A stretch of DNA of 6,287 nucleotides, from assembly GCA_003661385.1 (NCBI GenBank), contig QMWA01000102.1, positions 1-6,287 of the forward strand. Direction: 5' to 3'. The position numbers were made by a program, and so were the translations under genes. The notes beneath the pieces are model-generated. The model had not been told where the DNA came from and searched no databases. It saw only the letters and a program-made list of their open reading frames with translations. Of this stretch, positions 638 to 2,395 are shown one piece after another. Source of the stretch: Thermoproteota archaeon. Its GTDB lineage: Archaea; Korarchaeota; Korarchaeia; B14-G2. The first letter of the stretch is position 1. Each line of letters begins with the position of its first letter.

Positions 638-823
638 GTGTGCGAGTTCAAGGTGTTCCTGGGTGGTGAGCTTGTTTTTGAGGATGTGGTCTACGCGAGC
701 CAAGACGGCTCTAAGGTCGTCTTAGTGAACATATTCGGTGAAAAGAGGGTTATTGACTCGTGCACGATAGCTGAGGTCGATGTCGGGAGGGAGAAGCTGG
801 TGTTGGAGCGCTCTGAGGGCTAG
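638..823 (+). CDS. CooT-family small nickel-binding protein
   Basis: The 61-residue product starts M-C-E-F-K-V-F-L and continues GGELVFEDVVYAS, then VVLVNIFGEKRVIDSCTIAEVDV. This is the pattern of the CooT family (about 60-70 residues; Pfam CooT, once called RNA-binding protein 2): an M-C start, then a small beta barrel with the central motif V-x-L-V-x-I-F-G-E. In characterised CooT the second-position cysteine binds nickel, and the protein helps nickel supply to carbon monoxide dehydrogenase. For archaeal homologues the role is inferred. GTG at 638 is chosen so that Cys is residue 2. In-frame GTGs at 635 and 629 would add one or three residues, and 629 sits at the ideal leaderless distance from the TATA box. 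An ATG at 578 is rejected because it precedes the TATA box. Head-to-head placement with hypA supports a nickel role. Confidence 0.85.
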   Translation: MCEFKVFLGGELVFEDVVYASQDGSKVVLVNIFGEKRVIDSCTIAEVDVGREKLVLERSEG

Positions 824-831
824 CTAAGCAG

Positions 832-849
832 CTCCAGCAGCTGCTGGAG
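832..849. repeat. Perfect 18-bp palindrome after the CooT-like gene
   Basis: CTCCAGCAG (832-840) is immediately followed by its reverse complement CTGCTGGAG (841-849). It begins nine bases after the CooT-like stop codon. It could fold as a hairpin in transcripts from either strand, ending the CooT-like message or the opposing candidate RNA. There is no T-run on either side, so it is not a standard archaeal terminator. It could also be a protein-binding dyad. Confidence 0.6.
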
Positions 850-863
850 GGCTTAACGTTCCT

Positions 864-911
864 GGCTCTCCGCTACACATGTATCCAAAGCTATGAAAGT
901 AGCGGAGAGCC
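864..911. repeat. Perfect 13-bp inverted repeat with 22-base loop
   Basis: GGCTCTCCGCTAC (864-876) and GTAGCGGAGAGCC (899-911) are exact reverse complements around a 22-base loop. It is the longest long-arm hairpin in the window and lies outside any convincing gene. It is treated as a helix of the candidate RNA, but a cruciform or a protein-binding dyad is possible. Confidence 0.75.
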
Positions 912-956
912 TTCCCGTCTCAGGGTTCATAGGCGGGCTTTCGGGGGAGTGGAGCT

Positions 957-1026
957 CCCCACATCTATCTGGCTCCTTAGCTCCGCCCCTTCGGCTTACC
1001 CTCCCTCTCTCCACCCACCCCACATC
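957..1026. repeat. Direct repeat of CCCCACATC
   Basis: The 9-mer CCCCACATC occurs at 957-965 and again at 1018-1026 inside the candidate RNA region (GATGTGGGG in the minus-strand transcript). It may be an exposed repeated loop sequence or coincidence in C-rich DNA. Confidence 0.35.
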
Positions 1027-1057
1027 CCGAGCGGAGCTCACCTAACACGAAGAGGCC

Positions 1058-1071
1058 TCCCTTTATAAAGG
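1058..1071 (-). promoter_or_regulatory. Strong TATA promoter facing the candidate RNA
   Basis: On the minus strand the sequence is AAGCCTTTATAAAGGG: a GCC-flanked TFB-recognition-like segment and the TATA core TTTATAAA at 1062-1069. About 25 bases further lies 1039-1041, the start of the structured segment. The core is self-complementary, so firing to the right is possible, but that would only give transcription antisense to the 3' end of the Nre gene. Confidence 0.55.
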
Positions 1072-1111
1072 CTTTGAGCTACAAAAGTTTTCGTGTGCTA
1101 CAAATGCAACG
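1072..1111 (-). terminator. Possible 3' end of the Nre transcript
   Basis: Downstream of the Nre stop the minus strand has two short T-rich clusters (CATTTG, then ACTTTTG) inside a repeated 8-mer TTTGTAGC (1104-1097 and 1085-1078). Archaeal termination often occurs at T-rich stretches, but these are short and no hairpin is evident. The call rests on position between the Nre stop and the next promoter. Confidence 0.25.
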
Positions 1112-2395
1112 TCATATGTTTCTGCCCCTAAGCATGCCCTTCTCCACGAGCTTAGCTTGCCTCCCTGGCTTCAGAAGCCTGCTTACCTGGAGCCAGGCTT
1201 CCAGCGGCATCAGCATCCTCTCTGATATGTGCTCTAGGATCTCCTGTAGGCTGCTGTACCTGGCTGGCTTCTGCCTGAGCGCCAGCCTGACGCTCTCCCT
1301 CACCTGCCAGACTCCAAGCGGCATTATGTGCCCTGGGTATGCTTCCCTCAGGACTACAGCTGCTGCCTGCCTCCTTCTCCCATATAGGTGCTCTGCTACA
1401 GCTAGCCTAGCTGCATAGTAGCATCCACCTATGCTAGCGTAGCTTGACCTCCCATAGTAGCCCTCCCAGTCTGAGCCGACTGCTATGCTCTCACTGCTGA
1501 GGTTCCATGCTGTGCTGGGGTACCACGCCTCTATGAGCTCGTAGCTCCATGGCCTTGGAGTCAGCACGACCACGAACTTGTTGTCTAGCTTCTCAGCCTC
1601 ATAGACCTCATACTCACCTAGCTCCTCGAAGCTCCTCAGCTCTGAGATCAGCTTCAAGCCTATCATGGAGTCTACTGCTGTTATGCTCCACCTTGTCGGG
1701 ACAAGCCTCCTCCGGGGCTTCAAGCCGAGCGCGCCCAGGCTCAGCGCCCTTATTATAGCTGAGACAGGCACACCACCCCTGTAGAGCTGGAGCACTGCTT
1801 CAGACGCCTTGAGATCCGTGTCTTCATAGGCCTTCTCGATCCTCCTATCAGCCTTAACGCCCCCTGCCTTGAGGTCTCTGAGCGGGGCTGAGGGGCCGAA
1901 TGGCTGTGAATCTGGGTCCAGCTGTGTCTTGAGGACTGGCTTAGACTTCAGCTCCATCTCGACTTCCGCTGGCCTAGCTGAGATGCCCAGCTCCACCAGC
2001 TCCTCCAGCATCCTTCCAAGAGGCCTTCTAGCATCAACCTCAGCTACCCCTCTTACGAGAGAAAGCCTGCCCTTGACTATCTGCTCTCTGCTGAGCTGAA
2101 GCCACCTCTCAGGCTCAGCTAGTATCGACGTGTCACCTCTGTAAGGCGGAACCAGGGGGCCTACTGTCACCCTAGGGTACCTGGCTCTCCCAATGAAGAT
2201 GTCTGGTGGGCTGCTTCCATCCACCTGTGTGCTCTGGAGTGAGGGGGCTAGCGGAGCATAAGCTCTGATCTTGAAGAGAACTGGGCAAGCTGGCCTACCG
2301 CAGAGGAGCTTTACCCCCCTGCAGTGCAGGCAGCTAGCCTCCGGGCTTCGAGAAGCTGAGCTAACCCACCTGTCTAGGCGGTGTGCCCAGGGCAC
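1112..2395 (-). CDS. Nre-family archaeal DNA repair protein
   Basis: Nre proteins are an archaeal family implicated in repair of DNA damage; in haloarchaea NreA is thought to work with the sliding clamp PCNA. The 427-residue product has the family hallmarks in order. A zinc-site pattern C22xxC25-x6-C32-x4-C37 comes first. Then come SPPDIFIGRARYPRVTVGPL and GDTSIL (around residues 60-90), RRLVPTRWSITAVDS near the middle, TPRPWSYELIEAWYPS, and DWEGYYGRSSYASIGGCYYA plus the PLGVWQVRESVR block toward the C-terminus. Length is normal. The start is GTG at 2395, with GAGGT about 11 bases upstream; the frame has no other ATG, GTG or TTG back to a stop. The C-terminal tail (QAKLVEKGMLRGRNI) lacks the aromatic pair of a typical PCNA-interacting box. 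It lies 37 bases behind the roadblock gene on the same strand, so co-transcription is likely. Confidence 0.9.
   Translation of the reverse strand: MPWAHRLDRWVSSASRSPEASCLHCRGVKLLCGRPACPVLFKIRAYAPLAPSLQSTQVDGSSPPDIFIGRARYPRVTVGPLVPPYRGDTSILAEPERWLQLSREQIVKGRLSLVRGVAEVDARRPLGRMLEELVELGISARPAEVEMELKSKPVLKTQLDPDSQPFGPSAPLRDLKAGGVKADRRIEKAYEDTDLKASEAVLQLYRGGVPVSAIIRALSLGALGLKPRRRLVPTRWSITAVDSMIGLKLISELRSFEELGEYEVYEAEKLDNKFVVVLTPRPWSYELIEAWYPSTAWNLSSESIAVGSDWEGYYGRSSYASIGGCYYAARLAVAEHLYGRRRQAAAVVLREAYPGHIMPLGVWQVRESVRLALRQKPARYSSLQEILEHISERMLMPLEAWLQVSRLLKPGRQAKLVEKGMLRGRNI

Follow-up and report, generated by a model that had tools for sequence, protein, structure and literature searches.

Positions 856-1128 of the DNA analyzed here (the window, i.e., the whole stretch of 6,287 nucleotides) most probably correspond, with a probability of about 0.85, to a solo, non-autonomous mini-element of the IS607 family which carries an omega-RNA scaffold of the sRk48/sRk52 type. 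Its insertion site is the 3' end of the gene nre. It retains the two ends of the transposon and a TATA promoter, along with the omega-RNA (reRNA) scaffold, which derives from the 3' end of tnpB and overlaps it in autonomous relatives; tnpA and nearly all of tnpB are gone. The identification is based on: (i) matching ends; (ii) homology to tnpB 3' ends, the tnpB genes in question adjoining IS607 serine transposases; (iii) an RNA structure with compensating changes; (iv) a TATA box whose position is kept in solo copies; and (v) two homologues that are positionally identical to the Pyrococcus abyssi RNAs sRk48 and sRk52. An earlier note on this DNA had proposed a possible structured RNA at 830-1040: the features described are indeed there, but the element is larger (about 856-1128).

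The mini-element lies on the minus strand, where the following order is read: GG (1128-1127), left end, TATA box, scaffold and right end (about 856). Its limits (left end at 1128, right end at 856-857) are those of multi-copy relatives with sharp boundaries, in which the left end is GG-GGCAGAAAC.TAT... and the right end is CAGAACGG. The window copy shares both ends, its right end being CAGGAACG (CAGGAACGT with the boundary) at the place of CAGAACGG. The left end (GGGGCAGAAACATATGACGTTGCATTTGTAGCA..., 1070-1128, minus strand) matches the left ends of solo copies in genomes G014 and G139, as well as copies in G203; the left ends of the G014 and G139 solo copies match, in turn, those of full elements carrying both tnpA and tnpB (L080, L093). 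The boundary dinucleotides of the window copy are GG (left) and GT (right), and GG is found at both boundaries in G383, G139, G290, G135 and most of the G203 copies. No tnpA was found in the window by means of the ORF list and a Pfam search, and the element is not an autonomous IS607. An origin from IS200/IS605 (Y1) elements was considered and rejected, since the genome itself has no Y1 transposase and the transposase of the autonomous relatives is the serine enzyme of IS607.

The insertion has left its mark on nre (1112-2395, minus strand; identified from the ORF list, a domain search and the tails of relatives), whose last four codons and stop (GRNI stop) lie inside the left end of the element and are supplied by it. 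Relatives have a QxxLxx(F/Y)L-like Nre tail, possibly a PCNA-interacting peptide; in the window, the Nre C-terminal tail (1112-1150) is altered by the insertion and runs into the element, the motif being absent. For an empty-site comparison of the nre-cooT region, no relatives were found above approximately 50% Nre identity.

On the other side of the element lies the convergent gene cooT (638-823, plus strand; PF10133). Between both, a sequence check located the 18-bp palindrome CTCCAGCAGCTGCTGGAG at 832-849, with TAAGC/GCTTA flanks (827-856). This palindrome, formerly counted among the features of the RNA, does exist, but it is outside the element, in the host flank, where it is possibly a transcript-end hairpin for the convergent genes.

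The mini-element belongs to a family that is dispersed among archaea. A DNA search of 60 relatives detected similar, dispersed copies in six further archaeal genomes; G014 alone gave seven matches, and those in G022 and G055 fall on the 3' end of tnpB. In its own genome, the window region is single-copy, and the nearest relatives are only about 75% identical to it. A covariance model, R1, was built from a ten-segment right-end alignment (the window was one of the ten seeds and none came from genome G075) and gave matches in 51 of 394 archaeal genomes, with E-values down to 1e-33. Around these matches 80 loci were fetched, and 83 matches were classified. Some of the R1 matches coincide with the 3' end of an intact tnpB ORF. 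Full copies have an intact tnpB of approximately 390-410 codons (many others are broken) and, in several cases, an upstream serine transposase. According to assignments made on representative proteins, the latter consists of an N-terminal HTH followed by a Resolvase domain (PF12728+PF00239), i.e., the IS607 domain order, and TnpB corresponds to PF07282. Both ORFs are present in L080, L084, L093, L111, L120 and L122; a left end resembling that of the solo copies was found in each of them except L084.

In solo copies, homology to TnpB is confined to the last part of the gene. Those listed amount to 42 and come from at least 19 genomes and at least 10 families. Within one genome, solo copies resemble each other up to sharp edges, beyond which their sequences are unrelated. 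For instance, five nearly identical copies in G383 have their left edge between GG and GCTGTTTC and their right edge between CAGAAC and GG; the same edge pattern occurs in G139, G290 and G135. Since, in addition, full elements in G139 and G203 start with the left end of the solo copies, solo and full copies are mobile elements of one family. A strict scan of contigs with the exact pattern recovered only four solo copies: three from Thermococcus/Thermococcaceae and one from Ca. Alkanophaga.

For the near-identical solo copies of G383 (L081, L083, L085, L087, L089), no tnpB-linked copy with the same right end was found in that genome, which suggests that they were moved by the transposase of another element or that an autonomous element was lost recently. 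A shorter derivative of about 110 bp (L155; G035:C4, approximately 2600-2703) has the left end and TATA box joined directly to the right-end hairpin, the scaffold being gone.

The dispersal of the family bears on the proposal, made in the earlier note, that the RNA might regulate the CooT-like gene. As a dedicated regulatory RNA for the convergent cooT or for nre, it would be suitably placed between both genes, and its transcription would run towards cooT. Nevertheless, the homologues examined, including several copies per genome, adjoin unrelated genes, as befits a mobile element, and the flank is the only locus-specific segment. A regulatory role is therefore very improbable.

A small protein gene is likewise hard to sustain. 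A frame of 62 codons (853-1041) is indeed open on the minus strand, but it has no Pfam match, and a remnant of the C-terminus of TnpB makes up its second half (SPESPPMNPETGRLSAT...VAESQ; 862-945, minus strand). This remnant was identified through a BLASTP comparison of two sequences alone, with the TnpB tail of L005 as the other (47% identity, 58 aligned positions, E 2e-9); the frame's second half and the TnpB C-terminus have in common the motif PESPPMxPExGRLSAT...VAESQ. Besides, the indels among solo copies are not multiples of three, and the helices are kept by compensating changes. The frame thus ends in coding sequence left over from tnpB and is not an independent gene, in line with the initial impression that no convincing protein gene was present; the chance that it is one is close to negligible.

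Regarding the RNA itself, four helices can be differentiated on the minus strand: (i) P0, in which the 5' arm AGCUCCGCUC (1029-1038) pairs with the 3' arm GGGCGGAGCU (979-988) and which covaries across families; (ii) stem-loop P1 (GGGG...CCCC, 943-960); (iii) stem-loop P2 (914-937), with an AUGA...UGA loop (K-loop in sRk52) in which alignment A1 shows no variation at the UGA and in part of the GA side; and (iv) P3, with arms GGCUCUCCGCUAC (5', 899-911) and GUAGCGGAGAGCC (3', 864-876). P1 and P2 were derived from comparative alignments, and P3 from these and a sequence check. A conserved GATGTGGGG occurs twice: at 1018-1026 (GATATGTGGGG in most copies) and at 957-965, where it is near-invariant in A1 and leads into P1. 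Most of these features had been noticed from the sequence at the outset: the perfect 13-bp hairpin (864-876/899-911) is P3, the 8-bp long-range helix (979-986/1031-1038) is P0, here extended to 10 bp, and the repeated 9-mer CCCCACATC corresponds to both copies of the conserved motif.

In dinucleotide shuffles of 830-1040 (n = 500), the longest stem was 10 bp, and none of the 500 reached the 13 bp of P3. Folding was more stable than in shuffles, with z-scores of -2.9 (minus strand) and -4.4 (plus strand). P0 is not in the minimum-energy structure when the window RNA is folded as a single sequence, so the structure rests on comparison. In the ten aligned right-end segments, three stems were supported, with 88.2% of cells paired and seven pairs changed on both sides. 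In 43 solo copies, 95.6% of cells were paired vs. 81.8% after shuffling, a percentage that leans towards the covariance model because the alignment was fitted to it; both-side changes amounted to 128 vs. a shuffled mean of 45.6, and pairing fell to 27-47% when partners were slid by one or two columns. P0 lies outside the model and, hence, provides a more independent test, albeit not a wholly choice-free one, since the anchors by which its arms were placed had been chosen group by group (two groups of copies) and with knowledge of the P0 register: among 40 distinct arm pairs (solo and tnpB-linked), 88.9% of cells were paired vs. a maximum of 74.2% in 1000 whole-arm shuffles, and 89 both-side (compensating) changes were counted vs. 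a shuffle maximum of 55. Kinship among copies inflates both tests (that of the 43 solo copies and that of the P0 arms) somewhat. Divergent P0 arm pairs that still pair include GCUCCGCUC/GGGCGGAGC, ACAGUCUCC/GGAGACUGU and CCUGUGCCC/GGGCACAGG. In full elements, the zinc ribbon of TnpB is encoded by codons that overlap with P0. Overall, relatives show strong covariation of the structure.

Upstream of P0, the minus-strand TATA box TTTATAAA reported at 1069-1062 is present and agrees with the TATA consensus at eight of eight positions. Among solo copies, 25 of 42 have an 8/8 consensus box in the corresponding position (28-51 nt before P0), vs. none of 17 tnpB-linked copies, these copies not being independent of one another. 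Elements that bear tnpB and lack tnpA (L114) also seem to have a left-end TATA box near the equivalent place, and solo copies may be derived, to judge from such sequences, from tnpB-only elements through internal deletion. In the two G075 copies, the TATA box was computed to start at 985777 (sRk48) and 1104029 (sRk52), followed by the mapped 5' end after 28 and 27 nt, respectively. When projected onto the window, these distances predict a transcription start at 1042-1041 (minus strand), no more than a few bases from the site near 1039 that had been expected earlier. The structured RNA with its own promoter that the earlier note had put forward is upheld by covariation in relatives, by the TATA box of most homologous solo copies and by the mapped P. 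abyssi starts; there is good support for the predicted archaeal promoter dedicated to this minus-strand RNA.

The P. abyssi ncRNAs sRk48 and sRk52 have stems P0-P3, a BRE/TATA promoter and similarity to the 3' ends of IS607 OrfB; they are encoded in repetitive intergenic loci and show covariation in P0 and P3, and P1 is conserved in sequence (Phok et al., 2011, PMC3124441). They were located at 985849-986002 (sRk48; 5' start at 985805) and 1104008-1104286 (sRk52; 5' start at 1104056) (PMC3124441, Table 1). The R1 matches G075:C1:985859-985983(+) and 1104116-1104231(+) coincide with these loci on the same strand, by which G075 was recognized as P. abyssi. As far as sequence can tell, the window RNA is of the sRk48/sRk52 type, since sequence, structure, upstream TATA box and stems P0-P3 all agree. 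In the sRk48 copy (L104, 2601-2725 in G075), the P3 loop is extended into a stem, as was already pointed out for sRk48-like sequences in 2011 (PMC3124441). The initial statement that the RNA fits no known family holds for Rfam, in which a scan of both strands gave chance-level matches only (the best, MIR8041, scored 28.9 bits vs. a gathering score of 80, and RAGATH-18 was not listed), but not for the literature, which contains both sRk48/sRk52 and the reRNA scaffolds of IS607 TnpB.

A mechanism can be proposed for the family by analogy with TnpB reRNAs. Transcription from the promoter would begin near 1041 on the minus strand and yield an RNA of about 185 nt, to which the flank is added. This RNA would be bound by TnpB acting in trans, which would take the flanking host sequence as its guide; in the window, the segment equivalent to the guide, provided that the RNA serves TnpB, would be the host DNA directly 3' of the right end (836-855, minus strand), as deduced from reRNA anatomy. 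By cutting sites that lack the element, TnpB would help the element be kept, and IS607 TnpA, also acting in trans, could move it. Genomes G139, G203, G290 and G135 have solo copies and also encode TnpB and serine transposases. For the family, such a trans-acting mechanism is somewhat probable; for the window copy at present, it appears unlikely. The wider proposal that archaeal IS607 mini-elements, a class spread over at least 10 families, are genuine genes for trans-acting guide RNAs (an omega-RNA with its own promoter, L7Ae at the P2 K-loop, and TnpB recruited from elsewhere to protect or re-copy the insertion) is put forward tentatively, at somewhat less than an even chance.

The window copy might, on the other hand, be a dead relic, that is, the same internally deleted IS607 element with promoter and RNA idle in the present host. 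This alternative, to which about even odds can be given, shares its identity with the mini-element reading and differs from it solely as to whether this copy is active today. A search of the window genome (G000, 91% complete) gave no cognate TnpB, and this copy may thus no longer work. A single PF07282 match, of a different kind (L017), is found in the genome, as well as a single IS607 TnpA, whose neighbour is a divergent TnpB-like ORF (L158); no R1 match lies at or near either of them, so the window copy may be stranded. It is also single-copy, and the changed right-end dinucleotide (GT instead of GG) and one broken P2 pair are as in a decaying copy. Diverged solo copies are present in two genomes, G052 and G236, that have neither TnpB nor serine recombinases. 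Nevertheless, the four helices are all essentially preserved, and the TATA box is perfect, in spite of only about 75% identity to the nearest relatives; besides, the genome is fragmented and lacks approximately 9% of its content, and assemblies frequently miss mobile elements. In the L158 locus (G000:C195, 1320-3106), IS607 TnpA is followed by a TnpB-like frame of 420 codons in which SSIDPFTGKR replaces the usual zinc-ribbon cysteines.

The mini-element reading connects expressed Pyrococcus ncRNAs of unexplained function with TnpB guide RNAs, and the same combination of promoter and scaffold recurs in solo copies from at least 10 archaeal families. Provided that TnpB uses such RNAs in trans, a single nuclease gene can suffice for many mini-elements at scattered sites, and the function of sRk48 and sRk52 becomes directly testable in the genetically tractable Thermococcales; if the mini-elements are trans-acting guide-RNA genes, both RNAs gain a function.

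In comparison with known systems, the window RNA resembles sRk48 and sRk52 in its four stems P0-P3, its TATA promoter and its homology to the 3' end of tnpB, but this copy is found in another archaeal phylum, as a single copy, at the end of nre and with about 75% identity to the nearest copies. The work that described sRk48 and sRk52 is older than TnpB guide RNAs and assigned no function to them, and L7Ae binding to the P2 K-loop was demonstrated for P. abyssi sRk52 only (PMC3124441). Like the IS607 TnpB reRNA or omega-RNA (ISXfa1, PMC10711439; RAGATH-18-derived, PMC11061315), the window RNA is placed at an IS607 right end and overlaps the 3' end of tnpB. That reRNA runs past the right end, and a fixed flanking nucleotide is part of its scaffold (PMC10711439); the window RNA would likewise continue into flanking DNA. 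Unlike IS607 TnpB reRNAs, it has no tnpB in cis and has its own promoter directly upstream. Stand-alone HEARO/omega-RNA loci of IscB are also guide-RNA genes without a nuclease gene in cis, like the window element, but they serve IscB instead of TnpB, are bacterial and encode another RNA. The PATEs of Haloquadratum are, like the window element, archaeal mini-elements that arose when elements carrying TnpB lost their core; yet they have an IS605-type origin and subterminal palindromes, whereas the window element has an IS607 origin and an interior made of a conserved structured RNA and its promoter (PMC3119063). The window RNA thereby adds a member to a kind of RNA that has been known from Pyrococcus since 2011 and is still poorly understood.
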